Below the pieces are notes generated by a model, which saw only the letters and a list, made by a program, of their open reading frames with translations, did no database searches and was not told the DNA's origin. Positions 5,114 to 35,952 of a DNA stretch of 45,981 bases are shown in pieces (within the stretch, counting starts at the first letter, position 1; the number at the start of each line of letters is the position of its first letter). A program made the translations under genes and the position numbers. This stretch comes from Lachnospiraceae bacterium. GTDB taxonomy: Bacteria > Bacillota > Clostridia > Lachnospirales > Lachnospiraceae. Location: contig JAUNGI010000018.1 of assembly GCA_030524525.1 (NCBI GenBank), positions 1 through 45,981 on the forward strand, read 5' to 3'.

Positions 5114-5123
5114 CTTTTCTGGT

Positions 5124-17753: not shown

Positions 17754-17928
17754 CTGTTTTTTCCTTTGCCTTTTTGCTATTACGGATGCCTTGGCTTCTC
17801 GTGCCGAACAGGTCGGCGAGGTTGTCGTGTTACTCTTTGAATGGTGCCGTATTCCGCTTATTGCAGCCGCCTGTTCTTTACCATGTGGCAGTTTGATAAG
17901 TTTGGCGGCGTCTCCATAGAACAAGCTC
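17754..17928. other. Intergenic stretch, no supported gene
   Basis: A 73-codon plus frame and a minus-strand frame (FYGDAAKLIKLPHGKEQ) cross this interval, but neither has a start with ribosome site. It may be the remains of an older gene. Confidence 0.3.
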
Positions 17929-17957
17929 TTTACACCCTCCGGAAAAGCCCTTATAAT
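17929..17957 (+). promoter_or_regulatory. Sigma-A promoter of the response-regulator transcript
   Basis: TTTACA (17929-17934), 17-base spacer, TATAAT (17952-17957). Transcription would start near 17964, about 14 bases before the pseudoknot leader, so the whole RNA element is in the transcript. Confidence 0.8.
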
Positions 17958-17977
17958 TAATCTATTGTTTTATATCC

Positions 17978-18073
17978 GCTATTTGTGCCGGAGCATCACA
18001 AATAGCCCCGATGGCAGATGAGAACCGCCTGCGCTCGCATCTTCGCCACAAGCCGCTCGGAAATGAGGATTAG
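17978..18073 (+). promoter_or_regulatory. Pseudoknot leader element, copy A
   Basis: P1 hairpin: GCTATTTGTG (17978-17987) with CACAAATAGC (17997-18006). The loop CCGGAGC (17988-17994) can pair with GCTCGG (18055-18060) with one bulge, forming an H-type pseudoknot. Between them lie CCCCGATGGCAG and a variable hairpin (AGATG..CATCT). The element ends in GAAATGAGGAT, which contains the ribosome site for the response regulator. Confidence 0.7.
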
Positions 18074-18766
18074 ATGAAAGAAAATATGCCCACAGATATG
18101 CAGATTCTTATAATTGAAGACGATCCCGATATCAATCAAATGCTACGGCTTCTGCTCCGGCAGAACGGCTACGGAACCGTCAGCGCCTATTCCGGAACGG
18201 AGGGCGTGCTCGTTCACGGCAAAAACATCCGTCTGGTGCTTTTGGACCTGATGCTGCCGGGACGCAGCGGCGAGGAGATCGTTCGGGAGCTGAAGCAGAA
18301 GCATAACGTTCCGATCATTGTAATGAGCGCCATCCACGACGTGAATAAAAAGGTCGATCTGTTTGCGCTGGGAGCCGACGATTATGTGACAAAGCCGTTT
18401 CACAACGAGGAGCTGCTTGCGCGGATCGCGGCGCGGCTGCGAACCGGCGGGGAAGCGCCGAAGGGTGAAAAGCTTGTCTATAAGGAGTTGACGCTTGACC
18501 GGGCCGACTTTTCGGCGAGCTGCGGCGGAGCGCCCATGGAGCTGTCGCGGCACGAGTTTGCTCTGCTCGCCCTGCTGATGGAAAATCCCGGACGAACCTG
18601 TACGAAAAGCAGGATCTACGACAGCGTGTGGGACGATGAAAATTCTGCGGACGACAATACCCTGAACGTTCATATCAGCAAGCTGCGCAAAAAGCTCAGG
18701 GAGTGCAGTCCCGAAGCCGACTACATCGAAACGGTGTGGGGCGTCGGCTATCGACTGAAAAAATAA
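18074..18766 (+). CDS. OmpR/PhoB-family response regulator
   Basis: A 230-residue regulator. The receiver domain (residues about 9-125) has the acidic pocket EDD, phosphoacceptor Asp58 (LLDLMLPG), Ser85 and Lys107 (YVTKPF). The C-terminal winged helix (about 135-230) has LSRHEFALLALLMENPG and DNTLNVHISKLRKKL, ending YIETVWGVGYRLKK. It likely binds direct repeats before the ABC genes. It heads a locus of regulator, ABC ATPase, ABC permease and histidine kinase, the arrangement of peptide-antibiotic sensing/resistance systems (BcrR-, LanR- or CprR-like). Its leader carries a pseudoknot element also found before the cognate kinase. Confidence 0.95.
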   Translation: MKENMPTDMQILIIEDDPDINQMLRLLLRQNGYGTVSAYSGTEGVLVHGKNIRLVLLDLMLPGRSGEEIVRELKQKHNVPIIVMSAIHDVNKKVDLFALGADDYVTKPFHNEELLARIAARLRTGGEAPKGEKLVYKELTLDRADFSASCGGAPMELSRHEFALLALLMENPGRTCTKSRIYDSVWDDENSADDNTLNVHISKLRKKLRECSPEADYIETVWGVGYRLKK

Positions 18767-18771
18767 ATCCG

Positions 18772-18826
18772 TTCAGACTTTTTTAAGACTTCCGTTAAGT
18801 GTTTTTTCAGGTATTTCTGCGATAAT
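18772..18826 (+). promoter_or_regulatory. ABC-transporter promoter with four phased TTMAG direct repeats
   Basis: TTCAG (18772), TTAAG (18783), TTAAG (18795) and TTCAG (18806) are direct repeats spaced 11, 12 and 11 bases, i.e. on one face of the helix, as expected for two dimers of an OmpR-type regulator. The last lies about 10 bases before an extended -10 (TGC GATAAT, 18818-18826) that lacks a good -35, the usual look of an activator-dependent promoter. Confidence 0.65.
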
Positions 18827-18872
18827 GCAGATATCCGCTTGAGCAGAGAAGAAAAAACATGGGAGGATTGCA

Positions 18873-19790
18873 ATGCGCGAAATTGTACTGCAAACAAAAG
18901 GGCTTTCTAAAAAGTATAAAAGCTTTACCGCGCTCGATCATGTGGATATGACCGTGTACCGGCAGGATATATACGGTCTGATCGGGCGCAACGGCGCCGG
19001 AAAAACGACGATCATGAAGGTCGTTACCGGGCTGACGGAGGGATCGGGCGGCGAGTTTGAGATCTTTTCCAAGAAAGGCGCCGCGGCGGAAAAGGAAAAG
19101 CGGCGCATCGGCTGTCTGATCGAGAATCCGGCGTTTTTCGGCAGTCTGACGGCATGGCAGAATTTGAAGTATTATGCCCTGCAAAAGGGAATCACCGACG
19201 AAAAGCAGATCGACGAGGCGCTTGCCCTTGTCAATCTGACGGAGGTCAAAGACAAAAAGTTCAAGAAATTTTCGCTCGGAATGAAGCAGCGTCTCGGCAT
19301 CGCCTTTGCCGTGCTGGACAATCCCGACCTGATCATTCTGGACGAGCCGATCAACGGGCTGGACCCGATCGGAATCAGCGAGCTGCGCAGCACGTTTCAG
19401 AAACTTTGCAGCGAGCGCGGCATTACGTTCATCATTTCCAGCCACATTCTTTCGGAGCTTTATCTTGTGGCGAACCGCTTTCTTATCATTGAAAAGGGGC
19501 GGGTTCTGAAGGAGGTTACAAAGGAGGAGCTTGACCTTGCCTGCATGCGCTGCCTTGTTGTGAAAACCACCGACACGAAGCGGGCGGCGGTCGTTTTGGA
19601 GGAGGCGCTGGGGATCTCCGAATATAAGGTGATCGACAGCGGAGAGCTGCGTGTTTACGAGAACGGCGTGAAGCCGGAGGAGCTGAACCGGGTTCTGATC
19701 CAAAACAACGTTGCGGTATCCGGCATTTTTGAAGCCGGGATATCGCTGGAGGATTATTTCAAGTCGCTGGTCGAGGAGGGCTCGTTATGA
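18873..19790 (+). CDS. ABC transporter ATPase (BcrA/lantibiotic-immunity type)
   Basis: A 305-residue ATPase. Walker A is GRNGAGKTT (about residues 38-46), the signature FSLGMKQRLGIA (about 132-143), Walker B LIILDEPINGLDP, and the switch histidine is in ISSHIL. The C-terminal extension of about 90 residues is typical for BcrA-like ATPases of the ABC-2 class. It pairs with the next gene, whose start codon overlaps its stop. It probably energises removal of a membrane-active peptide or lipid-linked target from the membrane; the substrate is unknown. The start is supported by GGGAGGA. Expression is likely controlled by the neighbouring response regulator through the TTMAG repeats. Confidence 0.93.
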   Translation: MREIVLQTKGLSKKYKSFTALDHVDMTVYRQDIYGLIGRNGAGKTTIMKVVTGLTEGSGGEFEIFSKKGAAAEKEKRRIGCLIENPAFFGSLTAWQNLKYYALQKGITDEKQIDEALALVNLTEVKDKKFKKFSLGMKQRLGIAFAVLDNPDLIILDEPINGLDPIGISELRSTFQKLCSERGITFIISSHILSELYLVANRFLIIEKGRVLKEVTKEELDLACMRCLVVKTTDTKRAAVVLEEALGISEYKVIDSGELRVYENGVKPEELNRVLIQNNVAVSGIFEAGISLEDYFKSLVEEGSL

Positions 19791-20635
19791 TGAATATGAT
19801 AAAAGCGGATCTGTACCGCATCGTTCGGAGCTTTGGGCTCTATATCGGCATTGCGATCATGTTTCTTATGATTGCCATGAGCATTTATCTGGTGCAGCCC
19901 GGCAGTATTAGCATGGGTACCGTCGGCGACACAAGCACGACCGATTTTGACGATACGGCGGCGGACGATCTTACCGCCGGAGCGCTGGAGAATATGAGCA
20001 TGAGCGATCTGCGGGAGCTTATGCTGAAAAGCGAGGGCTATGAGCTGGACAGAGATATTTTGGGACACAACATGAATCTGTATTATGTGTTTATTTTTGT
20101 GGCGGCGCTGGCGGTAACGGTGGATTTCTCCACGGGAAGCATAAAGAACACGCTGTCCTCGGCGATCAGCAGAAGGCGGTACTTTATTTCCAAGCTTGCG
20201 CTGATCACCCTCGGCTGTCTGCTGCTGTTTTTCCTGAATACCTATGCTGCGTATTTCTCCAATTTGATTTTTAACGGAAGCAAGGTTGCGTCGAGCCTGT
20301 GGACGGTCACCAAGATCTCGCTCCTGCAGCTTCCGCCGATCTTGGCGCTTACGAGCATTCTTGCGGGGCTTGCGTTCACACTGAAAAAAAGCTCGATCTT
20401 CAACGTGGTGGCCATTCCGCTGGTTCTGGTGTTCCAGCTCTTGTTCAACTTGGCGGTGAGACTTTTTAACATTCCGCAGAAATACGTTTCTTATGAACTC
20501 CAGATCATGCTTGGCAGGTTGGCGGGCGACCCGTCTGCGGGCTATGTACGGAACTGCTATCTGCTCTGCGCGGGCGTTATTGCGGTGTTTACGCTGCTCG
20601 GATACGTCTCCTTCCGAAGGGCGGAGATCAAGTAA
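19787..20635 (+). CDS. ABC-2-type permease subunit
   Basis: A 282-residue integral membrane protein with about six hydrophobic segments: near 14-36, then, after an extracellular loop of about 60 residues rich in Asp/Thr/Ser, near 95-112, 136-160, 178-200, 205-228 and 255-275. This is the BcrB/LanE-like layout. The region STGSIKNTLSSAISRRRYFISK before the third segment is the typical coupling region. ATG at 19787 overlaps the stop of the ATPase gene (ATGA), so the two are translationally coupled. Together they form one exporter or immunity complex. Confidence 0.85.
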   Translation: MMNMIKADLYRIVRSFGLYIGIAIMFLMIAMSIYLVQPGSISMGTVGDTSTTDFDDTAADDLTAGALENMSMSDLRELMLKSEGYELDRDILGHNMNLYYVFIFVAALAVTVDFSTGSIKNTLSSAISRRRYFISKLALITLGCLLLFFLNTYAAYFSNLIFNGSKVASSLWTVTKISLLQLPPILALTSILAGLAFTLKKSSIFNVVAIPLVLVFQLLFNLAVRLFNIPQKYVSYELQIMLGRLAGDPSAGYVRNCYLLCAGVIAVFTLLGYVSFRRAEIK

Positions 20636-20640
20636 GCGCA

Positions 20641-20769
20641 GCTATTTGTCCCTGAGCGAAAGCAAATAGCTTTGATGGCAGAGGAGAGAACCGCAATGCG
20701 GTAAGTGTGCCGCATATGCGGATTTCTCGTCGCCTCCTCGCGGCAAGTCGCTCGGAAATGAGGATGGGA
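20641..20769 (+). promoter_or_regulatory. Pseudoknot leader element, copy B
   Basis: P1: GCTATTTG (20641-20648) with CAAATAGC (20663-20670). The loop CTGAGCGA (20652-20659) pairs with TCGCTCGG (20748-20755), 8 pairs with one G-T. Between lie TTTGATGGCAG and a large branched insert with two small hairpins (ACCGCAATGCGGT and CCGCATATGCGG) closed by GAGGAG/CTCCTC. It ends GAAATGAGGAT before the kinase start. It begins 5 bases after the permease stop, so it acts inside the operon mRNA. Confidence 0.75.
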
Positions 20770-21663
20770 ATGGAACTATTGGCGGGCATATTGGGAATTG
20801 CGCTGCTTCTTTTGCTGTTCCTTTTTCTGCTGCAGCGGTGGGAGCTGAAAAGCATGACGAAGCAGCTTGACGCCGTCGGCGGGCAGGAGACGAACGAGCT
20901 GGTGCATTTGCGGTTCGGCGGAACGGTCTCCGCCGAGCTGGCGAATGAGATCAACCGGCTGCTGAAGGAAACGCGCCGCACCCGGATGGAATATCAGCGG
21001 AAAAAACACGCGCTGGATCAGATGCTGACGAATCTTTCCCATGATCTTCGGACGCCGCTGACCTCGGCGATGGGCTATGTGGGCATGCTGAAAGGCTCCG
21101 AGCTGCCGCAGGAGGAAAGGATGCGTGAGCTTGCGCTCGTGGAGTGTCGCCTGCTGCGTTTGGAGGAGCTGCTCGATTCGTTCTTTGAGTTTTCGCGGAT
21201 CATTTCCGGCGACCGGCAGCCCGAAACCGAGGAGCTGAATCCCGTGGCGCTGTTGGAGGAGTCCGTCGCCCGTTATTACGACGACTACTGCGAACTGCGG
21301 CGCGAGATTGTGCTTCGCTGCGACCGGCCGAAGCGAAGGACGAGGTCGAACCGGAGCCTGCTGCTGCGGATCTTCGACAATCTGATCGCCAATGCGCTCA
21401 AGCATGGTACTGGCACGCTTTTCGTTTCGGTGGGCGGGGAGCAAAGCGTCCGCATTTGCTTTGAAAATGAGCTTACGGAGCCCGACCTTGACGTAAGGCG
21501 CGTGTTTGACGAGTTTTATACGACCGACATTTCCCGGAGCCGGGGCGGTACGGGACTTGGGCTCGCCATTGCCAAGCAGTTTACGGAGCTGCTTGGAGGA
21601 AGCATATCGGCGGCGTATGAAAACGGCGTCTTTTCCGTGACTCTGGACTTTCCGGAGCCATAA
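20770..21663 (+). CDS. Sensor histidine kinase with a single membrane segment
   Basis: A 297-residue kinase. One N-terminal hydrophobic segment (about residues 3-21), then a coiled linker, the dimerisation domain with phosphorylated His91 (NLSHDLRTPLTS), and the ATPase domain with N-box (NLIANALKHG) and G-box (GGTGLGLAIAKQF). No extracellular sensor domain is present, so it may sense through its membrane segment or through the ABC transporter, as in other peptide-resistance modules. The ATG at 20770 is preferred over upstream in-frame starts because the conserved leader places GAGG 6 bases before it. It is the partner of the response regulator at 18074, separated from it by the transporter genes. 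Confidence 0.93.
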   Translation: MELLAGILGIALLLLLFLFLLQRWELKSMTKQLDAVGGQETNELVHLRFGGTVSAELANEINRLLKETRRTRMEYQRKKHALDQMLTNLSHDLRTPLTSAMGYVGMLKGSELPQEERMRELALVECRLLRLEELLDSFFEFSRIISGDRQPETEELNPVALLEESVARYYDDYCELRREIVLRCDRPKRRTRSNRSLLLRIFDNLIANALKHGTGTLFVSVGGEQSVRICFENELTEPDLDVRRVFDEFYTTDISRSRGGTGLGLAIAKQFTELLGGSISAAYENGVFSVTLDFPEP

Positions 21664-21728
21664 ATCGCGGAAAAGCCGTTTTTTGTCAAAAAGAGAATTG
21701 CAATCCGGTTTTAGTTATGATAGAATGA

Positions 21729-21759
21729 CCCTGATTTTTTTATAAAAATCAGGGTTTTT
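21729..21759 (+). terminator. Rho-independent terminator after the histidine kinase
   Basis: CCCTGATTTTT pairs with AAAAATCAGGG around a TTATA loop, followed by five T and C. Confidence 0.85.
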
Positions 21760-21760
21760 C

Positions 21761-21789
21761 TTGACAAGCGAGCGAATGTTTGATATGGT
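21761..21789 (+). promoter_or_regulatory. Sigma-A promoter of lysA
   Basis: A perfect TTGACA (21761-21766), 17-base spacer and TATGGT (21784-21789). A repeated AATGTTYGA (21775 and 21801) flanks the predicted transcription start and may be an operator. Confidence 0.75.
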
Positions 21790-21845
21790 GGACGCAAACA
21801 AATGTTCGACTCGTGCGGGAAGGATAGAAGAAAGGAGCATTACCA

Positions 21846-23108
21846 ATGAAAATTCCCTTTGTAACACGCGAGCAGGTCGAAGAAATTGTAAAGACCTACC
21901 CCACCCCGTTCCACATCTATGACGAGAAGGCGATCCGCGAGAACGCGCGCAAGCTTCGTCAGGCGTTTGCTTGGAACCCGGGCTTCAAGGAATTTTTTGC
22001 GGTAAAGGCAACTCCCAACCCGTATTTGCTGCAGATCCTTCGGGAAGAAGGCTGCGGTACGGACTGCTCCTCCATGGCGGAGCTTTGCATGGCGGACGCG
22101 GTAGGCTTCGGAGAGGGCGAGATCATGTTCTCCTCCAACGAAACACCGGAAGGAGAATTTGCCAAAGCGAAGGAATTAGGCGCCTTCATTAACTTGGATG
22201 ATATTACGCACATTCCCTTTCTTGCAAAGGAATGCGGAGTGCCAAAGACGGTGTGTATGCGTTATAATCCGGGTGGCGTTTATGAACTGGAAAACGGGAT
22301 CATGGATTGTCCCGGAGACGCCAAGTACGGCTGTACCAAAGAGCAGATGATAGAGGGCTATCGTCAGCTTCAGGGGCTTGGCGCCGAAAACTTTGGGATC
22401 CACTCGTTCCTTGTGAGCAATACGATCGCGGAGGAATATTATCCGACCCTTGCAAGAACCTTGTTTACCCTTGCGGCTGACCTGAAGAACGCTACCGGTG
22501 CGCACATTTCGTTTGTCAATCTTTCCGGCGGGATCGGAATTCCCTACCGTCCGGAGGAGGAGCCGGTGGATATTCTGAAGGTGGGCGAAGAGGTGCGTAA
22601 GGCGTATGAGGAAATCCTTGTTCCTGCGGGAATGGGAGACGTGGCGATCTTTTTGGAGCTCGGCCGTTTCATGATGGGGCCTTACGGACATCTTGTGGTA
22701 AAAGCCATTCACGAAAAACACATTTACAAGGAGTACATTGGCGTCGATGCATGCGCGGTGAATCTGATGCGCCCGGCGATGTATGGTGCGTACCATCATA
22801 TTACCGTTTTGGGCAAGGAAGACGCGCCGAAGGATCATGTATACGACGTGGTAGGTTCTCTCTGTGAGAACAACGATAAGTTCGCGATCGACCGCGAGCT
22901 TCCGAAAATCGATATGGGGGATTATCTGGTAATTCACGACACCGGAGCGCATGGCTTTGCTATGGGCTATAATTACAACGGGAAGCTGAAATCCGCCGAG
23001 CTGCTTTTGAAAGAGGACGGTTCGGTTCAGATGATTCGACGTGCGGAAACCATAAAAGACTATTTTGCTACGCTGGATATTTGTCCGGCAATGCATAAAT
23101 ATCTATAA
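21846..23108 (+). CDS. lysA: Diaminopimelate decarboxylase
   Basis: A 420-residue PLP enzyme of the group IV (alanine racemase-fold) decarboxylases, catalysing the last step of lysine synthesis, meso-diaminopimelate to lysine. The PLP lysine is Lys54 (FFAVKATPNP), and the phosphate-binding region is around NLSGGIGIPY (family GGGxG). The C-terminal beta domain has GSLCENNDKFA, which takes the place of the usual CES/D active-site motif, and TGAHGFAMGYNYNG, where family members usually have GAY. The variant residues suggest a divergent branch; activity on a related substrate is possible. It is monocistronic, with its own promoter and terminator. The start is supported by AAAGGAG. Confidence 0.88.
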   Translation: MKIPFVTREQVEEIVKTYPTPFHIYDEKAIRENARKLRQAFAWNPGFKEFFAVKATPNPYLLQILREEGCGTDCSSMAELCMADAVGFGEGEIMFSSNETPEGEFAKAKELGAFINLDDITHIPFLAKECGVPKTVCMRYNPGGVYELENGIMDCPGDAKYGCTKEQMIEGYRQLQGLGAENFGIHSFLVSNTIAEEYYPTLARTLFTLAADLKNATGAHISFVNLSGGIGIPYRPEEEPVDILKVGEEVRKAYEEILVPAGMGDVAIFLELGRFMMGPYGHLVVKAIHEKHIYKEYIGVDACAVNLMRPAMYGAYHHITVLGKEDAPKDHVYDVVGSLCENNDKFAIDRELPKIDMGDYLVIHDTGAHGFAMGYNYNGKLKSAELLLKEDGSVQMIRRAETIKDYFATLDICPAMHKYL

Positions 23109-23434
23109 ACGACGGTATTGTTTCAGTTCGGTAAAATGGTTGAGAAAACGCCCATACGGTTGCGGAAAAAACGATTTTAAAACATATCGGGCTGTGAACA
23201 ATACGTAAGAAAACGCTCCGTCTTGGCGGAGGTCGTATATTGCGATAAGGGAAAGAGGACACAGACTCGATGGGAGTCTGTGTTTTTGTTTGCATCTTTT
23301 CCTTGAAGGCGATCAAAAGCCGAAAACGGGAAGGCGGTACGGCGCCCGCGCGAAAGGAAAGGGCGCGGTTAAGGCGGTATTGCGGCACAGCGCAAATACG
23401 TGCGTGAAATACGCAGGGAAATTGAGAGGTAAGT
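23109..23434 (+). other. Intergenic region between lysA and the exporter operon
   Basis: Besides the lysA terminator it holds a small hairpin (CTCCG..CGGAG at about 23216-23231). The remaining 140 bases before the GTG start show no clear sigma-A promoter. A frame at 23290 is not supported by a ribosome site. Confidence 0.4.
23259..23288 (+). terminator. Rho-independent terminator downstream of lysA
   Basis: ACACAGACTC pairs with GAGTCTGTGT around a short loop, followed by TTTTTGTTT. Confidence 0.8.
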
Positions 23435-25807
23435 GTGAAAAAGAAACAACGGTTAAACACCGAAAAAAAAAAGATACCCCGCCAGCTTCGTCCGCTGCTG
23501 GCGGAACAGGGGATTTCGGAGGAGGAGATCCTTCTTTCGGCCAAAGTGGATATGAACTTGGAATGTCATTTCACCAAGGGATATCTTCTGTTGACGAAAG
23601 AGCAGCTGGTCTCCGCGATCTCCGAGGCGGTTCCCGGCGAGCTTCATTACTTTAAGGGGGCGGAAAACGTTTCCCGCCTGCAAATGGAGACGGAACGGGA
23701 GTGGACGATAAACGTATATCCGGTGGCGCAGATTCGGCGGCTGCAAATTGAGCGAACCGTGGCGGGCGGCTTTCTGCTGCTGATCGCACCGAATCCGGAG
23801 GACGACGAGGCGGACGGAGAGGCGCGGACGATCGCCGCCTTTTCCAACAAGTGCATGGGAGAAACTACGCGAGTAGAGAAGCTGTTCGACGTGTTGAAAA
23901 AAGGGGACGAGATTCCGCCGGAGCTGCTTGAGGACAAGGAGCTGGAGGCGTATTGCCCGACCTGCGGCAACATGTATCCCAATCCGGAACGAAAGATCTG
24001 TCCCAAGTGTATGGATCGCAAAAATATCTTTTTCCGGACGCTCGGCTACTTGAAGCCGCATAGAAAAAAGCTGATCGTGATGTTTTTGTGCTATGTGGTC
24101 ACCGCCTGTCTGAACCTTGTCTGGCCGTATCTGAACGGAACCGTTCTGTATGACCGGGTGCTGGGGAAGAGCGAATCGTTCCTGCGGTCCGTCGGCATTC
24201 CCGGAGGCCGCTACATACTTGCTTTGGGGCTTGTGGTGCTGACCATGATCCTGACAAAGCTGACCATACAGCTGGTCGGGATCCTGCAGGGCGTTCTGAC
24301 CGCAAAGATCGTTCCGGAGCTTGTGCGGGACATGAAGACGGACGTTTTCTCCTCCATGGGAAAGCTCTCGATCAACTTCTTTACAAGCAAGCAGACCGGC
24401 TCGTTGATGACACGGGTCATGTACGATGCGGACGAGGTGACCTCGTTCTTTATCGACGGTCTTCCGTACTTTTTGATCAACGTATTTACGATCATTGCCA
24501 TGGCGGTCATCATGTTCCTGCTGAATCCGATCTTGGCGGCTGCGTCGCTAGTGTTTATTCCGGTCACGTTTCTGATCAGCTGGCTGATGCTGCCGAGGCT
24601 CTGGCACCGGTACGGCAAGCAGCACCGGGCGAACCGAAGCCTGAACTCCCGCGTTCACGACAATCTGACCGGCGCCCGCGTCGTTAAGGCGTTCGGACAG
24701 GAGGAAAGTGAGATCGAGAGATTTCAAAAAAACAATCGGCGCGTCAGAAAAGCGGATATGGAGGTTGTGGCGTACGACATCAAATTCTGGGAGCTATACA
24801 GCGCTTCGGAAAACATGGCGGCGCTTTGCGTGATCGTTGTTGCGGCGTACCTGATCATTGTGAAAAAACAGATCGACTTGGGACTGATGATCACCTTTAC
24901 GGGCTATGTTTCTCAGCTGACCGGGCCGATGGATTTCTTTTCCCACTTCTTCCGCTGGTTTACCGGCTGTATGAACTGTGCGCAGCGAATGTTTGAGATC
25001 ATTGACGCGGTGCCGGAGATTCAGGAGGTGGAGCATCCGGTTCGCCTCGATCACATCGAAGGCACGATCGAAATGAAGCATGTGACCTTTGGCTACGAGC
25101 AGCACAAGCCGGTTCTTAAGGACGTGAGCATGAAGGTGGAGGCAGGAACGATGCTCGGCATCGTCGGGCGTTCCGGCGCGGGAAAGACGACGATCGTCAA
25201 TCTGATCTCGCGGCTTTACGATCCGCAGGAGGGCAGCGTAACGCTTGACGGAGTCGATCTGCGGGAGCTTTCTTTTGAAACGCTGCGCGGCAACGTTGCG
25301 ATGGTGTCTCAGGAAACCTACATTTTCATGGGGACGGTTGCGGAAAACATTGCCTATGCGAAGAAGGACGCAAGCCGGGAGGAGATCGTCCGCGCGGCGG
25401 TGCTTGCCAGCGCGCACGACTTTATCTGCAAGATGCCGGACGGCTACGATACGCGGATCGGTTCCTCCGGACGGGAGCTTTCCGGCGGAGAGCGGCAGCG
25501 GATCAGTATTGCCCGCGCCATTCTTGCAAACCCGAAGATCCTGATTCTGGACGAGGCGACGGCTTCGGTGGATACCGAAACGGAGCAGGCGATTCAGCAG
25601 TCCATCAACCTGCTGATCCGCGGCAGAACCACGATCTCCATTGCGCACCGGCTGTCCACGTTGCGCGACGCGCATCGTCTGGTCGTGATCGACGACGGGA
25701 AGGTGACCGAGGAAGGAACGCACGAGGAGCTTGTGGCAAAGAAGGGAACCTATTATAAGTTGAAGGAATTGCAGACCAAGGCGCTTGCGCTGAAGGGTCT
25801 GGAGTAA
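23435..25807 (+). CDS. ABC exporter half-transporter with N-terminal zinc ribbon (subunit 1)
   Basis: A 790-residue protein starting at GTG (GAGAGG upstream). The first 165 residues are a soluble domain with alternating strands (YLLLTKEQL, INVYPVAQIRRLQIERT) that looks PH-like. A zinc ribbon follows (Cys174, Cys177, Cys189, Cys192), then a six-helix ABC membrane domain (about 210-510) and an ATPase with Walker A GRSGAGKTT (near 580), signature LSGGERQR and Walker B ILILDEATASVD. Walker B is followed by a serine where exporters usually have the catalytic glutamate (EATAS as read), so only the Asp-Glu pair should be taken as seen. It is paired with the subunit at 26497 and separated from it by a DUF1854 gene, so the two probably form a heterodimeric exporter. 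Substrate unknown. Confidence 0.9.
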   Translation: MKKKQRLNTEKKKIPRQLRPLLAEQGISEEEILLSAKVDMNLECHFTKGYLLLTKEQLVSAISEAVPGELHYFKGAENVSRLQMETEREWTINVYPVAQIRRLQIERTVAGGFLLLIAPNPEDDEADGEARTIAAFSNKCMGETTRVEKLFDVLKKGDEIPPELLEDKELEAYCPTCGNMYPNPERKICPKCMDRKNIFFRTLGYLKPHRKKLIVMFLCYVVTACLNLVWPYLNGTVLYDRVLGKSESFLRSVGIPGGRYILALGLVVLTMILTKLTIQLVGILQGVLTAKIVPELVRDMKTDVFSSMGKLSINFFTSKQTGSLMTRVMYDADEVTSFFIDGLPYFLINVFTIIAMAVIMFLLNPILAAASLVFIPVTFLISWLMLPRLWHRYGKQHRANRSLNSRVHDNLTGARVVKAFGQEESEIERFQKNNRRVRKADMEVVAYDIKFWELYSASENMAALCVIVVAAYLIIVKKQIDLGLMITFTGYVSQLTGPMDFFSHFFRWFTGCMNCAQRMFEIIDAVPEIQEVEHPVRLDHIEGTIEMKHVTFGYEQHKPVLKDVSMKVEAGTMLGIVGRSGAGKTTIVNLISRLYDPQEGSVTLDGVDLRELSFETLRGNVAMVSQETYIFMGTVAENIAYAKKDASREEIVRAAVLASAHDFICKMPDGYDTRIGSSGRELSGGERQRISIARAILANPKILILDEATASVDTETEQAIQQSINLLIRGRTTISIAHRLSTLRDAHRLVVIDDGKVTEEGTHEELVAKKGTYYKLKELQTKALALKGLE

Positions 25808-25825
25808 TACGGAGGTAGAGGATAT

Positions 25826-26395
25826 ATGGGCATTAAGAAATTTGAAACTGCCGACGAGGATTTCGATCTTGAGCAGATGGAAGCGGAGACCGAAGCAATG
25901 CTGCGGCTTCGTTATATAACCCGCGACAATGCGGTATTTACCCGGACAAAGGGGGGCTTTGTCGCCCTGAAAATCGAGGATGAGAGCTACGACCGCGTGC
26001 GGGTCGTTCGGAGCTTTCCGTTTTCCGATCCGGACGCCTACATCAGCATCCGCGTGGCGGACGAAAAATCCCGGGAGATCGGGATGATCAAAAATCTGAA
26101 AACGGACGTCAGCGAGGAAACCAGAGCCATGCTCTTGGAGCAGATGAATCTGCGTTATTTTACGCCGATTATCCGCAGGATCAACAACATTAAGGACGAA
26201 TACGGTCACGCTTATTTTGATGTGGAAACGGACGAGGGGCCCTGCAAGTTTGTCATTTATATGAACTCCAGCTCCGTCGTAAATCTGACGGATACCCGGC
26301 TTTTGATCACCGACTTGGACGGAAACCGGTTTGAGATCCCGGACTATACAAAGCTGAGCGCAGGGGAACTGAAAAAGCTGGATCTGTTTCTGTAG
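25826..26395 (+). CDS. DUF1854 domain protein
   Basis: A 189-residue soluble protein. The C-terminal half, LRYFTPIIRRINNIKDEYGHAYF through DLDGNRFEIPDY, is the hallmark of DUF1854 as I recall it. Members are typically found beside ABC exporters, including in beta-proteobacterial clusters linked to cyanophycin metabolism. The N-terminal half (FETADEDFDLEQMEAETEAM) is acidic and probably helical. It begins 18 bases after subunit 1 and ends 101 bases before subunit 2, where a pseudoknot leader intervenes. No membrane segment is seen, so it may be a cytosolic accessory or adaptor for the exporter. No cyanophycin enzyme lies in the window, so the substrate is left open. Confidence 0.85.
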   Translation: MGIKKFETADEDFDLEQMEAETEAMLRLRYITRDNAVFTRTKGGFVALKIEDESYDRVRVVRSFPFSDPDAYISIRVADEKSREIGMIKNLKTDVSEETRAMLLEQMNLRYFTPIIRRINNIKDEYGHAYFDVETDEGPCKFVIYMNSSSVVNLTDTRLLITDLDGNRFEIPDYTKLSAGELKKLDLFL

Positions 26396-26423
26396 CTTTG
26401 CGGGGCAGCCGAAGCAGAACAAA

Positions 26424-26496
26424 GTCATTTGTGTCGGAGCGTTACCAATGACTTTTGCCGCCGTCCCGTTACCGACGCTCCGGAATGAGGAATGTT
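26424..26496 (+). promoter_or_regulatory. Pseudoknot leader element, copy D
   Basis: P1: GTCATTTG (26424-26431) with CAATGAC (26446-26452), one T bulged. The loop CGGAGCGT (26435-26442) pairs perfectly with ACGCTCCG (26475-26482). The variable middle hairpin is missing or very small. GAATGAGGAATGTT leads to the ATG at 26497. Helix sequences differ from copies A-C but the pairing and the distance to the start are kept. It lies within the operon, before the second exporter subunit only. Confidence 0.7.
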
Positions 26497-28707
26497 ATGG
26501 AACTGAATTTTCAATTACCCATGTCTCTGCGGGCGCTGCTGAACCTTTCGGAGAAGGAGCATGTGCGTTACTGCTCCCCCTACGATATCGGTTCGGACGG
26601 CCGCCTGAAAAGAGACGGTTATTTGGCGGTCACCGAGACCCGTCTTGTGATTTTTGACGGGGAGGCGATCGCGGAGACGATTCCGTTAAAGCAGATCACC
26701 TATCTGAAATGCGAACCGCAGGTGAACAACGGAATCCTGATCGTTCGGACGACGGAGACGCCGGAGGAACGGCTGCTGCTCCGCTTTTCTATGAAGCACG
26801 TATCCCGGATGGCGTTTATCGCCAAGGGAACGCTTCTGTTGCGGGACGGGGTGAAAAAGTCCGTGGTCAGCCGCGAATACGATAAGACCTGTCCGATCTG
26901 TGGCAGAGCGCTTGGCGGAACGAGAGAATGTCCGAAGTGCAGCAACAAGCCTTCGGTGCTTCGGAAATTTTTTGCCACATGGGGGCAGTACCGCGTCTGG
27001 ATGCTGCTGATCATGCTGACGATGGGGGTTTCCGCCGTGCTCTCCCTGCTTTCGCCGAAGGTGCAGCAGATTTTTATCGACGATTATCTCCGTCCGCAGA
27101 AGGGCGGCATGACGGCGGTAGCGGCGTTTGCCGGGATCATGATCGGCATCACGCTGCTGAACATTATCTTTTCCGTCTGCAAGCACTGGATGTGCATGTC
27201 CATGGGAACCCGCGTCAGCATGGATCTGCGGGAGCGCATGTATCAGAAGATACAGGAGCTTTCCCTTTCGTTTGTGCAGGAAAGGAAGCCGGGCGTTCTG
27301 ATGAATCGGATCACCGGCGATACGAAAAACATTCGCGTCTTTATGGAGGATGCGTTTTCCAACATGTTCAACTGCCTGATCACGATGGCGGCGACCATGG
27401 TCATCATGTTTGTCATGAACTGGCGGCTGACGCTTTTGACGATCGTTTTTATGCCGATTGCATTTTTTGCAAGCATGAGCTTTCGGAAGGAGATTCACCG
27501 GCGCTTCCATATGCAGTGGCATAAGGGGGACCGGACGAATGCAAATTTGCAGGACGTGCTTTCCGGTATGCGCGTCGTGAAATCCTTTGGCACCGAGGAG
27601 CAGGAAACGCAGAAGTTCCGGAGCTTTACAAACGATTTCGCCAAGATCCAAAGGCGAAACGAGGTGTTCTGGGCGCTTTTGTTCCCGATGCTCAGCTTTT
27701 TGATGAGCATGGGCATTTATGTCGCCACCTACTTGGGCGGCAGAGAGGTGCTTGGCGGCGACATGACCGTCGGTCAGCTGACGCAGTTCATCAGCTATGC
27801 GGGGATGCTCTACGGGCCGCTGCAATGGATGACCTTCCTTCCGAGACAGATCACGATGCTTTTGACGAGCTTGGAACGGATCTACGACGTGCTGGACGAG
27901 CAGCCGCAGATCCTCGACCACGAGGAGCCGGTCGTGCAGGAGGTGAAGGGCGAGGTCGAATTCCGCAACGTGACCTTCGGCTACCGTTCGTACGAGCCGG
28001 TGCTTGAGAAGATTGATCTAAAGGTAAAGCCCGGAGAGATGATCGGTCTTGTGGGCGCGTCCGGAACCGGAAAATCCACGATGATCAATCTGATCATGCG
28101 GCTTTACGAGGTGGACGACGGTCAGCTTTTGATCGACGGCGTGGACATCAACCGGCTCAAGATCAGCAATTACCATTCGCAGATCGGCGTCGTTTTGCAG
28201 GAGAACTTCCTGTTTGCCGGAACCATCTATAACAATCTGAAATTTGCGAAGCCTGACGCCACCGAGGAGGAGATCATCCATGCCGCCAAGATGGCGAACG
28301 CGCACGATTTCATAGTGAAGACTCCGGACGGGTATAATACCTATGTCGGCGAGCACGGCTACAATCTTTCCGGCGGCGAGCGTCAGCGTTTGGCGATTGC
28401 CCGCGCCATTTTGAACCGGCCGAAGCTGCTGATTTTGGACGAGGCGACCTCCAGCTTGGATACGGAGAGCGAATATCTGATCCAGAAGGCGCTTGAGCGC
28501 TTGACGGCGGGCTGCACGACCTTCGCGATCGCGCACCGTTTGTCCACGCTGAAAGACGCCGACCGCCTTGTGGTTATCGACGGGCATCGGATCGCGGAGG
28601 TCGGAACCCATAACGAGCTGATGGAGAAGCAGGGCATTTATTACGGTCTGGTGACCGCGCAGCTGCAGATGCAGAGCCTGAAGGAAGAAGGCGCTGCCGG
28701 CGCATAG
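26497..28707 (+). CDS. ABC exporter half-transporter with N-terminal zinc ribbon (subunit 2)
   Basis: A 736-residue partner of the subunit at 23435. The frame is open from 26455, but GAGG before the ATG at 26497 and the conserved leader support that start. The N-terminus (about 1-125) is a PH-like soluble domain (DGYLAVTETRLVIFDG, IAETIPLKQITYLKC), followed by a zinc ribbon (CPICGRALGG..CPKC, near residue 132). The membrane domain runs about 155-460. The ATPase has Walker A GASGTGKST (near 520), signature LSGGERQR and Walker B LLILDEATSSLD, with the switch histidine in IAHRLSTL. The shared PH-like plus zinc-ribbon extension in both subunits is unusual for exporters and suggests a dedicated cytosolic interaction, perhaps with the DUF1854 protein. 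Confidence 0.9.
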   Translation: MELNFQLPMSLRALLNLSEKEHVRYCSPYDIGSDGRLKRDGYLAVTETRLVIFDGEAIAETIPLKQITYLKCEPQVNNGILIVRTTETPEERLLLRFSMKHVSRMAFIAKGTLLLRDGVKKSVVSREYDKTCPICGRALGGTRECPKCSNKPSVLRKFFATWGQYRVWMLLIMLTMGVSAVLSLLSPKVQQIFIDDYLRPQKGGMTAVAAFAGIMIGITLLNIIFSVCKHWMCMSMGTRVSMDLRERMYQKIQELSLSFVQERKPGVLMNRITGDTKNIRVFMEDAFSNMFNCLITMAATMVIMFVMNWRLTLLTIVFMPIAFFASMSFRKEIHRRFHMQWHKGDRTNANLQDVLSGMRVVKSFGTEEQETQKFRSFTNDFAKIQRRNEVFWALLFPMLSFLMSMGIYVATYLGGREVLGGDMTVGQLTQFISYAGMLYGPLQWMTFLPRQITMLLTSLERIYDVLDEQPQILDHEEPVVQEVKGEVEFRNVTFGYRSYEPVLEKIDLKVKPGEMIGLVGASGTGKSTMINLIMRLYEVDDGQLLIDGVDINRLKISNYHSQIGVVLQENFLFAGTIYNNLKFAKPDATEEEIIHAAKMANAHDFIVKTPDGYNTYVGEHGYNLSGGERQRLAIARAILNRPKLLILDEATSSLDTESEYLIQKALERLTAGCTTFAIAHRLSTLKDADRLVVIDGHRIAEVGTHNELMEKQGIYYGLVTAQLQMQSLKEEGAAGA

Positions 28708-28734
28708 AGCGGTAAACCGCTGTGGGAGGAAGCG

Positions 28735-29892
28735 ATGGCGGAAAAAGAAACGGAGATCTATCGGGAGCTGGTTCCCTATTTTCTTCACTGGTATGATTAT
28801 AACGCCCGCATCCTTTCGTGGCGGGAGGAACCCAGCGCGTATCATACGTGGATCTCGGAAATTATGCTGCAGCAGACCCGCGTGGAGGCGGTCCGGGGCT
28901 ATTACGACCGCTTCCTCCGGGCGCTGCCCGATGTAAAAGCACTGGCGGAAGCGCCGGAGGAGCAGCTTTTGAAGCTGTGGGAGGGACTCGGCTATTACAG
29001 CCGCGTCCGCAACCTGCAAAAAGCCGCGAAGGTGGTCTGCGCAGAATACGACGGGGTGCTTCCGGCCGATTATGAGCGGCTGAAAAGCCTTCCGGGGATC
29101 GGTGCGTACACGGCGGGAGCAATCGCTTCCATTGCCTACGGTATTCCGGTTCCGGCGGTGGACGGCAACGTGCTGCGGGTGATGAACCGCATCACGGGAA
29201 GCCGGGAGGATATTACAAAGGAGTCGGTGAAGCGGACGCTTTTTACGGAGCTGCTTGCGGTCATGCCGAAGGAACGGCCGGGCGATTTCAATCAGGCGGT
29301 CATGGACATCGGCGCGACGGTCTGCGTTCCAAACGGCGAGCCGCATTGTTCGGATTGCCCGGTGATGCATCTCTGCAAAGCCTTTCGGGAGGATAGCTGG
29401 CGGGAGATCCCCTGCAAGCCCGCGCCGAAAAAAAGAAAGGTTGAGAAACGCACCGTATTTGTGATAGAATGGCAGAGACGGTACCTGCTGCACAAAAGGC
29501 CGGACAAGGGCTTGCTTGCCGGTTTGTGGGAAATGCCGGCAGCCGAAGAAAAGCTCGGAAGCGCCGAAGCACGGGCGCGGGCGGAGGAACTGCTTGCCGG
29601 GCTGCTGCCCGGCGAGCTTCCGACCGGACGGCTGACGGCGCTGCCGCCCGCAAAACACATTTTCAGCCATGTGGAATGGCGGATGAGCGGGTATTGGGTA
29701 TCGCTTTCCGGGAACTCGGAAAGCGCGCCGCCCGAACGGCTTGGGGAGAGCTATGTATTTGTCGATGCGGAGACGATGCAGGAGCGCTATTCGCTTCCGA
29801 GCGCCTTCACCGCCTATGTAAGCGAGATTCTGCGGCACGAGAGGGAGAAGGAGCGTCCCGGCGCGACGTCGGAGGAAAATCAGAAAGGATAA
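28735..29892 (+). CDS. mutY: A/G-specific adenine glycosylase
   Basis: A 385-residue base-excision repair enzyme that removes adenine mispaired with 8-oxoguanine or guanine. Its HhH-GPD core has the catalytic Glu42 (SEIMLQQTRV) and Asp143 (PAVDGNV) and the hairpin LPGIGAYTAGAI. An iron-sulfur loop has four cysteines (C-x7-C-x2-C-x5-C around HCSDCPVMHLC), and the C-terminal NUDIX-like domain that recognises 8-oxoguanine starts near residue 240 (VFVIEWQRRYLLHKRP). It starts 27 bases after the ABC subunit with GGGAGGA, so it may be read from the same transcript. Confidence 0.96.
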   Translation: MAEKETEIYRELVPYFLHWYDYNARILSWREEPSAYHTWISEIMLQQTRVEAVRGYYDRFLRALPDVKALAEAPEEQLLKLWEGLGYYSRVRNLQKAAKVVCAEYDGVLPADYERLKSLPGIGAYTAGAIASIAYGIPVPAVDGNVLRVMNRITGSREDITKESVKRTLFTELLAVMPKERPGDFNQAVMDIGATVCVPNGEPHCSDCPVMHLCKAFREDSWREIPCKPAPKKRKVEKRTVFVIEWQRRYLLHKRPDKGLLAGLWEMPAAEEKLGSAEARARAEELLAGLLPGELPTGRLTALPPAKHIFSHVEWRMSGYWVSLSGNSESAPPERLGESYVFVDAETMQERYSLPSAFTAYVSEILRHEREKERPGATSEENQKG

Positions 29893-29899
29893 AACGCAT

Positions 29900-30259
29900 A
29901 TGAGTTTGGAACGAATGCTGAAATATGCCAGTATTACGGAATTGATTGGAATCGGAATTTATTTCCTTTGCATGGCGGGGGGCTTCTTTTTCGAGACGAG
30001 CAACCCTTTGTTTCGCGTGTGCGGCTATGTGGCGGGCTTTCTGTGGTATACGCTCGGAATTTTGTTCTGCCTGATCGCGTTTTCGGTCATGATCTGGTTC
30101 TGGCGCTATCTGCTCAGCCTGACAATGCCGCGAACACGGGAGCTGACCGCAAAGAAAAAGGAAAAAATGCCGATCTTCTGGCTGATCTTGGCAACCGCCG
30201 CCTTTTTCGCTTATATGTCCTTTACGCTTGCGCTTGCGGGAGCGGGCGGAGCCGCGTAA
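29900..30259 (+). CDS. Small membrane protein of unknown function
   Basis: 119 residues with three or four hydrophobic segments (about 9-32, 40-72 possibly as two, and 90-117) and a basic loop (KKKEKM) before the last. It begins 7 bases after the mutY stop, with AGAAAGGA as ribosome site, so it is co-transcribed with mutY. I do not recognise a family. Confidence 0.75.
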   Translation: MSLERMLKYASITELIGIGIYFLCMAGGFFFETSNPLFRVCGYVAGFLWYTLGILFCLIAFSVMIWFWRYLLSLTMPRTRELTAKKKEKMPIFWLILATAAFFAYMSFTLALAGAGGAA

Positions 30260-30303
30260 AAGGGTTTGATTCGGGTTATCTGGGGGCTGTAAAAAACTCC
30301 CCT

Positions 30304-30342
30304 AAAAAATCGCTGAGGTCGTGCGACTTTGGCGATTTTTTT
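30304..30342 (+). terminator. Rho-independent terminator
   Basis: AAAAAATCGC pairs with GCGATTTTTT around a loop of about 18 bases, ending in a T-run that merges with repeat copy 4. It closes the mutY transcript. Confidence 0.75.
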
Positions 30343-30412
30343 GTTCTATGGGAAACTGCGTTTCCCATAGAACAAAAAAGCTCCGCGGGGATCGTACTGC
30401 GGCGGAGAGAAA
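30338..30412 (+). repeat. Dispersed hairpin element, copy 4 (short)
   Basis: Hairpin GTTCTATGGGAAAC..GTTTCCCATAGAAC, then AAAAAAGCTCCGCGGGGATCG and CTGCGGCGGAGAG. The later GC hairpins are missing, so the copy is truncated on its 3' side. The stem shows compensatory changes against copies 2 and 3 (e.g. ATGGG/CCCAT for ATAGG/CCTAT). Confidence 0.85.
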
Positions 30413-30572
30413 GGTGCTGCTTGGCACAGGTGCAAGAGACTTTCACGTAGAAAAATGAGAAAAAGACGAAAAAAAACGCGTAAAAATACACGAAAATAAT
30501 GTAGAAAATGTTGAAAAACACGGGAAACTGTGCTACGCTGAAGCTCAAGGAGCAAGAAAGGAGTGGGCGTTG

Positions 30573-31868
30573 ATGTATAGAAAAATTATGAGTTTTTTGA
30601 AGGCATGGAAAGAGAGCCCGCAGCGCAAGCCCTTGATTTTGCAGGGGGCAAGGCAGGTCGGCAAGACCTATTCCATTTTGGAATTCGGACGTGAACACTA
30701 TGAGAATGTGGCGTATTTTAATTTTGAAACCAACCCGAAGCTGAATGAGACTTTTGCGGAGAACATCAGCCCGGATTATCTGCTCCCGCTCTTATCCCGA
30801 ATTGCGGGGCAGACAATCGTGAGGAAAAGCACGCTGATCGTATTTGACGAGGTACAGCTTTGCGAAAGAGCGTTGACCTCGTTGAAATATTTTTGCGAGG
30901 AGGCGCCGGACTATCACATTATTGTTGCCGGAAGTCTTCTTGGCGTAGCAGTCAACCGAGCCAAGTTTTCCTTCCCTGTGGGCAAGGTGGATATGAAAAC
31001 AATGTACCCTATGGATATGGAAGAGTTTATGCTGGCAATGGGGGAGGGCGAACTTGTGGAGCAGATAAAGAGTAGCTTTCGCACGGATACTCCGTTGCCT
31101 GCAGTGCTCCATGACGCTGCAATGCGGCTATATCGACAGTATCTTGTTGTGGGGGGAATGCCGGAGTGCGTAATGCAGTTTGCCGAAACAAAGGATCATA
31201 TCCTCGTCCGTCATACGCAGGATACGATTCTGACAAGCTATCTGAATGATATGAGCAAGTACAACAATCTGAATGAAATCAAGAAAACACGGATTGCCTA
31301 TGATAACATTACCGTGCAGCTTTCCAAAAAAAATACCCGCTTTCAGTATAAGCTAATAAAAAAAGGAGGGCGGGCTTCCGAATTTGAGAACGCGATTGAA
31401 TGGCTGTGTTTGTCCGGCATTGTGGCACAGGTTTACCGGGTGGATCAGGTGAAAAAGCCGTTGGAAAATTATCGTGATATTGACGCGTTCAAAATTTATG
31501 TGTCTGATTTGGGCTTGCTCTGCGCAAAGAAGGAGCTGGCGGCGGATGATATTCTTTATATGACGGAGGAGCTTAACGACTTTAAGGGGGGAATGACGGA
31601 AAACTATGTGAATGTGCAGCTTACCGCGAACGGCTATCGTACCTACTATTGGGAGTCCCCGCGCGGAGCAGAGATTGATTTTGTTGTTCAGCGTGACGGA
31701 AAGCTCATACCCATTGAAGTGAAATCGGCGGACAATACGAAGGCGAAGAGTTTAAGAATTTATATGGAAACCTATCACCCGGAATACGCGATCAAGCTCT
31801 CGGCAAAGAATTTTGGGTTTGAGAACGGAAACAAGACCGTGCCTCTTTATGCCGCATTTTGCATCTAA
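30573..31868 (+). CDS. AAA_14 / DUF4143 ATPase
   Basis: A 431-residue protein of the AAA_14 plus DUF4143 family, common and multi-copy in gut anaerobes. Walker A is GARQVGKT (about residues 24-31), Walker B VFDEVQLCERALTSLKYF (about 90), and sensor/arginine regions follow. The C-terminal half has YWESPRGAEIDFVVQRDGKLIPIEVKS, a restriction-endonuclease-like (E..D..ExK) pattern. Cellular role is unknown; mobile or defence-related functions have been suggested for the family. Either TTG (30570) or ATG (30573) could be the start; AAAGGAG suits both. Composition is more AT-rich than the mutY cluster. It stands alone between a repeat element and its terminator. Confidence 0.88.
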   Translation: MYRKIMSFLKAWKESPQRKPLILQGARQVGKTYSILEFGREHYENVAYFNFETNPKLNETFAENISPDYLLPLLSRIAGQTIVRKSTLIVFDEVQLCERALTSLKYFCEEAPDYHIIVAGSLLGVAVNRAKFSFPVGKVDMKTMYPMDMEEFMLAMGEGELVEQIKSSFRTDTPLPAVLHDAAMRLYRQYLVVGGMPECVMQFAETKDHILVRHTQDTILTSYLNDMSKYNNLNEIKKTRIAYDNITVQLSKKNTRFQYKLIKKGGRASEFENAIEWLCLSGIVAQVYRVDQVKKPLENYRDIDAFKIYVSDLGLLCAKKELAADDILYMTEELNDFKGGMTENYVNVQLTANGYRTYYWESPRGAEIDFVVQRDGKLIPIEVKSADNTKAKSLRIYMETYHPEYAIKLSAKNFGFENGNKTVPLYAAFCI

Positions 31869-31888
31869 AGCTCATTGGGCAACAAGAA

Positions 31889-31933
31889 GCCCGGAACCGA
31901 CTTTTTAACAAGGTCGGTTCCGGGCGATTTTTA
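31889..31933 (+). terminator. Strong rho-independent terminator after the ATPase
   Basis: GCCCGGAACCGAC pairs perfectly with GTCGGTTCCGGGC apart from the short loop, then GATTTTT. Confidence 0.9.
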
Positions 31934-32097
31934 TGTGCGTTTAGCAACGTACCTTTATAATGAGGTGGAAAGCAGTCCACTTCCTCCTGTTCGATTGTAT
32001 AGAACGAAGCCCTGATACACACTTTATTATTTACTTAACACTAAAAAGAAGGCTGAGTAGATTGAAAAATCACACGGATGTACTGATTTTTCAATCA
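31934..32097 (+). other. AT-rich intergenic DNA with a perfect 13-bp stem
   Basis: GATTGAAAAATCA (32060-32072) and TGATTTTTCAATC (32084-32096) form a perfect hairpin directly before pseudoknot leader copy C. GTGGA..TCCAC near 31962-31979 forms a smaller one. No gene is supported. Confidence 0.5.
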
Positions 32098-32178
32098 GCT
32101 ATTTGTTTCTGAGCGAAAGCAAATAGCTCTGATAGCAGTCGCATCTTTGCGACAAGTCGCTCAGAAATGGAGATGAAT
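32098..32178 (+). promoter_or_regulatory. Pseudoknot leader element, copy C
   Basis: P1: GCTATTTG (32098-32105) with CAAATAGC (32120-32127). The loop CTGAGCGA (32109-32116) pairs perfectly with TCGCTCAG (32157-32164). Between are CTCTGATAGCAG and a perfect hairpin GTCGCA..TGCGAC (32138-32153), then AAG. It ends GAAATGGAGAT before the recombinase start. This is the most compact and regular copy. Confidence 0.8.
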
Positions 32179-35890: not shown

Positions 35891-35952
35891 GTGTGAAAAA
35901 CGGTCTTTATGAGCAATAAATAGAGACAAAAAAGAAGGAAAGGACCAAGAAT

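Follow-up and report, generated by a model that had tools for sequence, protein, structure and literature searches.

The analyzed window is a stretch of 45,981 nucleotides (nt) from Lachnospiraceae bacterium (JAUNGI010000018.1, positions 1 to 45,981 of the forward strand, assembly GCA_030524525.1). It contains four copies of a structured leader, referred to below as A to D (Table 1), in which the first helix, P1, starts at 17978, 20641, 26424 and 32098, respectively. The first-pass annotation had placed them there, before a response regulator, its kinase, an exporter subunit and a recombinase, and the positions hold; the genes encode a response regulator, a histidine kinase, an ATP-binding cassette (ABC) exporter and a serine recombinase. 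As it had also described, in each copy a strand complementary to the P1 loop lies downstream of P1, followed by a Shine-Dalgarno (SD) sequence and a start codon.

Several details of that description have to be amended. The architecture with a pseudoknot at the P1 loop is present in all four copies, but the pseudoknot of copy A is imperfect: its loop CCGGAGCAT stands opposite CCGCTCGG, so that pairing is limited to GAGC/GCTC and to outer pairs flanking a bulge or mismatch. Copy A looks like a mosaic of two subtypes, and the mismatch would arise because its loop comes from one subtype and its 3' strand from another. P1 of copy C carries a single T-C mismatch. The motif GATRGCAG, thought to be common to A-C, is found in A and B and also in D, but not in C. 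Copy D is at the annotated position but is longer than described, since a 5' hairpin (32060-32096) follows a TA dinucleotide at 32058-32059; the other three window copies have no such hairpin.

Family size and distribution

A covariance model built from the four window copies (R1) yields 81 matches in this genome at an expectation value (E) of at most 10, the four being found by construction; with dozens of additional copies, the suggestion that the arrangement is not due to chance is borne out. When run on 40 relatives, as the first-pass annotation had proposed, this model matched seven genomes at E<=0.1, with ten places in G031, which belongs to a different family of the order, four in the congener G006, and one weak place in each of five further genomes. 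A second model (R2), made from 37 sequences picked by hand from 70 listed, gave 76 matches at E<=0.001 in this genome, at least three of them being opposite-strand echoes of palindromes. The list of own copies used below comprises 70 of 90 matches, with overlapping-locus repeats, opposite-strand echoes and the weakest matches removed.

The distribution is patchy. Among 21 congeners, R2 matches once in G006 and once in G016, the other 19 having no match. It matches 16 of 295 genomes of the same order, belonging to two families (11 and 5 genomes), and one of 398 genomes of a phylum sample, namely this genome, these two surveys using strict filters and scoring only 10 and 8 candidates per genome, respectively. 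At E<=1e-4 there are 71 copies in this genome and 54, 45, 19, 12, 12, 6 and 6 in the other chosen carriers. The exact loop pattern occurs in at least 118 stretches, and the titles of the records, mostly Lachnospiraceae or its genera, suggest that the hosts are mainly Lachnospiraceae. The 80 loci retrieved for comparison were selected by a fixed P1-loop pattern among the matches listed, and one subtype is thus over-represented. The loop pattern is absent from viral_contigs, and the element has no plasmid match; carriage by viruses or plasmids was rejected, although two partial matches, covering 73% and 45% of the query, were obtained in 'Bacteriophage sp.' fragments from faeces that carry no annotation.

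A second subfamily is also seen in this genome (L363-L366, L371, L374), with the same layout but another sequence (GGCGGTTTG...), mostly at start codons and, in several copies, with the pseudoknot GCGGAGC/GCTCCGC (both by eye). Contigs C20 and C23 match each other at L092 and L093 over stretches that include both elements and their flanks, reflecting either a segmental duplication or a mixture of strains in the assembly. In G077, copies lie at contig ends (C28, C29, C98, C134, C1, C32, C6, C5), which is what assembly breaks caused by near-identical copies would produce.

Architecture and covariation

The element is approximately 105-190 nt long and non-coding. From 5' to 3' it consists of an optional 5' hairpin, P1, an optional helix P2, the strand pairing with the P1 loop and a new SD sequence, followed by the native start codon. 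In five copies (L101, L106, L143, L155, L158) an extra stretch, often a hairpin of differing sequence, lies between the 5' hairpin and P1, and in this respect the element looks modular.

The first-pass claim that pairing is kept while the sequence changes was assessed on an alignment of 37 distinct sequences, 25 of them from other genomes, and it applies to all helices. In particular, 94.1% of 1518 pair cells are paired, compared to 82.7 +/- 0.5 in shuffled alignments (0 of 500 shuffles reach the observed value), these shuffles not preserving relatedness, so that the figures are not to be read as probabilities. Changes on both sides are found in 28 of 45 pairs versus 14.6 after shuffling, which again none of the 500 shuffles reaches. 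If the partners are slid by one to three columns, pairing falls to 39-46%, the unslid register being favoured by the fact that the structure was drawn from one row of the alignment. For the pseudoknot helix alone, 95.2% of cells are paired versus 89.5 in the shuffles, with 19 two-sided cells versus 4.7.

The parsed copies show the same tendency, as 102 of 126 pair at all eight pseudoknot positions in the best of 15 registers. Exchange of the 3' strands among 72 distinct combinations decreases the mean number of pairs from 7.36 to 6.92 +/- 0.06 of 8 (0 of 500 exchanges reach the observed value; best of 15 registers in both cases). Five further pseudoknot pairs have changed on both sides with pairing kept. 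Other types of the pseudoknot, identified by eye, are CCGAAGCGC/GCGCTTCGG in G077, GTCGGAGC/GCTCTGAC in G166 and GACGAGC/GCTCGTC in G270; the pseudoknot-type parser returned nothing in 35 of 60 loci, and these were used only as examples and as an addition to the strand-SD test described below.

Insertion between the Shine-Dalgarno sequence and the start codon

Most copies directly precede genes. Among the 47 non-duplicate own copies scoring at least 40 bits, 38 are followed by an open reading frame (ORF) of at least 50 amino acids behind an SD sequence, five run into a following element, and four have the expected ATG (by eye) with an ORF that is short or unscored. Of 21 non-duplicate own matches below 40 bits, 13 precede a start, four hit another element, three do neither, and one is cut by a contig end. 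Outside this genome, 83 copies were parsed, and 75 of them lead to the start codon of an ORF of 50 or more amino acids; at least four of the eight remaining rows have a misplaced anchor, and a few of the parsed rows are false. In a separate inspection by eye of 83 places, the majority likewise continued into a start codon where the sequence was neither cut nor masked. The start codon is most often found 13 bases past the AATG-type anchor (25 of 33 own and 54 of 75 other copies).

The upstream border is equally characteristic. Among the hairpin-bearing copies, 26 of the 28 own and 33 of the 47 from other genomes have TA directly before the 5' hairpin, and these 59 copies show a purine-rich SD peak approximately 10 to 4 bases upstream of the element. 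All checked copies are in the sense orientation, most often at a TA located two bases ahead of the start codon. Nine genes were queried for empty sites in congeners, six of them being informative; orthologues of GuaA did not align at the start, PNP had a remnant-like motif only, and Pyk had a decayed copy. For enolase, a contiguous SD sequence and start codon without the element are found in three congeners, and for LeuA, AspRS, BCAT and RdgB both are intact without it in G006, for some of these genes in other congeners too. The empty site of RimM in G006 reads AAGGGAGCATAAATGG, and in this genome the same place reads AAGGGAGCA-TA-element-TA-AATGG, which would fit a TA duplication and a TA-ended element equally well. 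As the SD sequence and start codon of congeners are intact without the element, it is inserted between the two, usually at TA, and the insertion point of copy D was assigned by reference to these empty sites.

There are 31 pairs of own copies that are 95% or more identical. Two of these pairs are due to contig duplication, and in four the copies have a neighbouring element in common; for the other 25, two of which recur through a duplicate locus, the identity of both flanks is 0.30-0.49. Dispersed copies that are 95-99% identical between unrelated flanks, together with the empty sites, argue for movement rather than for common descent of the leaders. Where copies stand in tandem, the TA seems to have received a second insertion. 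Thus, of the two possibilities offered by the first-pass annotation, an undescribed control element or a mobile RNA-like cassette, the mobile cassette is well supported by the near-identical copies, the empty sites and the patchy distribution. What was observed directly is the existence of the family, the covariation supporting its structure, its dispersed copies, the empty sites and the place before start codons; in our judgement these probably represent a short mobile non-coding structured element capturing the translation starts of unrelated genes, to which control by an SD switch would be added by reasoning from the anatomy.

The exact position between the SD sequence and the start codon, many copies being bordered by TA on either side, would also be expected of an intron-like RNA that is removed from the messenger RNA (mRNA), restoring the native spacing. 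For such an element a well-spaced SD sequence at its own 3' end would be needless; moreover, there is no Rfam match to an intron or ribozyme and the element is very short, making this explanation highly improbable.

Genes behind the element

The proteins encoded behind the element belong to 44 Pfam families among 32 own proteins and to 112 families among 69 proteins from other genomes, none of the families being found in more than two members. The captured genes include those of enolase, AspRS, RimM, LeuA, RdgB, SmpB and RuvB (by Pfam and sequence), and no shared pathway was found among the 32 own and 69 other proteins. The presence of two copies in one signalling locus had been put forward as an argument against chance; since the downstream genes form a mixed set, no regulon emerges, and their lack of relationship argues against a metabolite regulon.

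This bears on the interpretation as a translational riboswitch, or a leader responding to a protein, that has been inherited by ordinary descent, that is, one RNA class responding to one signal before a defined set of genes. The strong covariation, including that of a pseudoknot beside the SD sequence, the location directly before start codons, and one recombinase gene having the element in two species (with differing subtypes) are all consistent with it. Against this stand the absence of a common function downstream, the congeners that lack the element at the same genes, and the near-identical copies in unrelated flanks, and we consider it unlikely.

Candidate translational switch and evidence against it

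The mobile element may do more than occupy the gap. Upon insertion, the native SD sequence would come to face the 5' hairpin, where a possible leader start codon lies near the old spacing: TTG, GTG or ATG occupies the former start position in 26 of the 28 own hairpins and in 28 of the 47 from other genomes. The captured gene would now be read from the new SD sequence at the 3' end of the element. The strand beside this sequence (CTCC, CTCA, CTTC) is complementary to the SD-like P1 loop (GGAG, TGAG, GAAG) or to the SD sequence, and it might alternate between them, leaving the SD sequence free when paired with the loop as the pseudoknot and hiding it when paired with the SD sequence itself; switching of this strand could set or modulate the translation of each captured gene. 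Folding of the 3' strand with the SD sequence yields -4.9, -4.2 and -6.4 kcal/mol in the three main types and -2.7, -3.3 and -2.7 kcal/mol in window copies A, C and D, the hairpin being formed in six of seven example sequences (-2.7 to -6.4 kcal/mol). From this anatomy, translational control by the element appears plausible. A universal leader peptide was considered and rejected, as hairpins of 36 and 37 nt set different frames and the stops fall at different places (55 rows with a parsable 3' end were compared and 33 rows without one left out).

The joined ends of the element (GGAGAT-TA-NN-NTG-AAAAA; SD-TA-NN-NTG) resemble a normal gene start, and this likeness of the end-to-end junction could, as an idea, explain the choice of target. 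In its full form the proposal is a transposable translational regulator that targets translation starts, passes the native SD sequence on to its own leader, places genes behind a pseudoknot-controlled SD sequence mimicked by the loop, and rewires the translation of dozens of unrelated genes in a single genome, its insertion specificity possibly stemming from the gene-start-like junction. We advance it tentatively, as somewhat short of probable.

A number of observations weigh against mobility of the kind described or against the switch. Across 116 distinct combinations, the 3' strand and the SD sequence are weakly associated, the observed value being reached by 17 of 1000 shuffles, and for this reason release of the SD sequence by pseudoknot formation is a proposal; the sequence from G270 forms no SD hairpin (0 kcal/mol). 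When the pseudoknot is considered by itself, two of the five measures stand out less clearly from the shuffles, namely the number of pairs with two-sided change, which 23 of 500 shuffles reach, and the number of further pair types, reached by 10 of 500. Copies decay, with 57 of 93 single changes in the pseudoknot arms breaking a pair and 36 keeping it, and such pair-breaking changes make it less likely that every copy is under tight functional constraint. Two of the 28 own hairpins and 19 of the 47 from other genomes have no leader start codon at its place; it is also missing from the Eisenbergiella copies L114, L126 and L142, and leader frames differ between hairpin types. At the 3' junction TA is less regular (18 of 33 own and 41 of 75 other copies), and a TA duplication is therefore not proved.

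The source of mobility belongs to the same account. No terminal inverted repeats are seen on direct reading, the 5' end being GATTGAAAAATC or GTGTGAAAAATAAGC and the 3' end GGAATGGAGAT. The search for a mobilizer covered three transposase families only: the Y1 transposase domain (PF01797) has no match in this genome (the assembly being 97.28% complete), DDE_3 (PF13358) has none in 16 genomes, and the IS110 C-terminal domain (PF02371) occurs in six of eight carriers and four of eight other genomes and is absent from G077 with its 45 copies, so that none of the three is supported as the mobilizer.

These data may also be read as a purely selfish repeat, in which the hairpins and the pseudoknot serve movement of the element's own DNA or RNA and the new SD sequence keeps insertions harmless, with no regulation involved. 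The patchy, high-copy and recent spread, the mixed targets without a theme, the copies lacking the 5' hairpin and the accumulating pair-breaking changes agree with this reading, a real possibility that nevertheless stops short of being probable. It accounts less readily for own copies without a script-found 5' hairpin, which still pair in 91 of 108 pseudoknot cells, and for the complementarity of the SD-adjoining strand to the SD sequence in six of seven examples.

Comparison with known RNA classes and repeats

An Rfam search, which the first-pass annotation had asked for, returned no family at the gathering score for any copy (whole window; 20 loci with 0 matches), and at E<=5 in window positions 17900-32300 there were sub-threshold matches only, all outside the four copies. 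Hence the element cannot be assigned to SAM-II, preQ1-II or any other class curated there. Both SAM-II and preQ1-II riboswitches form an H-type pseudoknot whose 3' strand is at or near the SD sequence, and the 3' strand of the element's pseudoknot is also close to it; unlike these riboswitches, the element is mobile and has no gathering-score match in Rfam and no common downstream pathway.

Being short, non-autonomous, multi-copy and dispersed in unrelated flanks, the element resembles miniature inverted-repeat transposable elements (MITEs), from which it differs in having no inverted repeats. IS200/IS605-derived palindromic elements (REP, PATE) have end hairpins and do not require target duplication; the element, too, has a hairpin at an end, but it occupies translation starts, in a host genome without a Y1 transposase. 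Correia and RUP elements insert at TA. To our knowledge, known small repeats are intergenic and occur in either orientation. With Correia/CREE, ERIC, RUP, BOX and SPRITE repeats the element shares its short length, non-coding character, multiple dispersed copies and ability to fold as RNA, whereas it stands apart in its location in the SD-start gap, single orientation, replacement SD sequence, conserved pseudoknot and lack of terminal inverted repeats.

Passages of two papers report that some small interspersed repeats affect mRNA (PMC10969869, PMC2229807), and a passage of a third argues that BOX, RUP and SPRITE are parasitic (PMC3049150). The same source mentions one composite case in pneumococcus, a BOX element combined with a T-box riboswitch (PMC3049150), which resembles our system in that a mobile repeat becomes part of a regulated 5' leader, while here the element itself is the leader adjoining the start codon. 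By analogy, the element may act as do small interspersed repeats that function at the RNA level. In the portions consulted, none of the three papers (PMC10969869, PMC2229807, PMC3049150) describes a repeat confined to the SD-start gap, and among titles and abstract openings in the literature no such element appeared, though preprints and subscription papers could hold one.

Features of the window copies and their surroundings

The coordinates are given in Table 1. The counterpart of the copy D recombinase gene in G006 also has an element (L040 1501-1600 versus window 32098-32181), without a 5' hairpin and of a different subtype, which may reflect reinsertion, conversion or an old common insertion. 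Adjoining the recombinase gene, at window positions 32987-37395, are genes for a BspA-type leucine-rich-repeat protein with a dockerin and for a cohesin protein. Two neighbouring Clostridiales-1 RNAs (window 4642-4787 and 4962-5120, minus strand) score above the Rfam gathering threshold; they are unrelated to the leader family.

Table 1. Positions of the structural elements of the four leader copies in the window
Copy	Feature	Position	Strand	Details
A	P1 hairpin	17978-18006	+	GCTATTTGTG/CACAAATAGC; loop CCGGAGCAT 17988-17996
A	Covariance-model matches			R1 17972-18076 (by construction); R2 17942-18076
A	GATGGCAG and P2 hairpin	18010-18042	+	P2 AGATG/CATCT
A	Pseudoknot 3' strand	18053-18060	+	CCGCTCGG; imperfect with own loop
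A	Element SD and start codon	18065-18076	+	GAGG 18065-18068; response regulator start 18074-18076
B	P1 hairpin	20641-20670	+	GCTATTTG/CAAATAGC; loop CTGAGCGA 20652-20659
B	GATGGCAG and P2 hairpin	20674-20739	+	long P2
B	Pseudoknot 3' strand and SD	20748-20772	+	TCGCTCGG 20748-20755; GAGG 20760-20763
B	Likely start codon	20770-20772	+	histidine kinase
C	P1 hairpin	26424-26452	+	GTCATTTG/CCAATGAC, one mismatch; loop CGGAGCGT 26435-26442
C	Pseudoknot 3' strand and SD	26475-26499	+	ACGCTCCG 26475-26482; GAGG 26487-26490
C	Start codon	26497-26499	+	ABC exporter
D	Presumed native SD region and insertion-point TA	32046-32059	+	GAAGG; TA 32058-32059
D	5' hairpin	32060-32096	+	GATTGAAAAATCA/TGATTTTTCAATC; TTG could start a leader ORF
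D	P1 hairpin	32098-32127	+	GCTATTTG/CAAATAGC; loop CTGAGCGA 32109-32116
D	P2 hairpin	32139-32152	+	TCGCATCTTTGCGA
D	Pseudoknot 3' strand and SD	32157-32181	+	TCGCTCAG 32157-32164; GGAG 32169-32172
D	Likely start codon	32179-32181	+	serine recombinase (resolvase N-terminal domain)

Implications

Annotations of these gut bacteria may carry false N-terminal extensions that are read from the element. If the proposed reading is true, mobile DNA that settles in the SD-start gap and brings a spare SD sequence would represent a new way to persist without killing genes, and its carriers would offer tens of natural insertions per genome in which RNA structure could be tested against translation.

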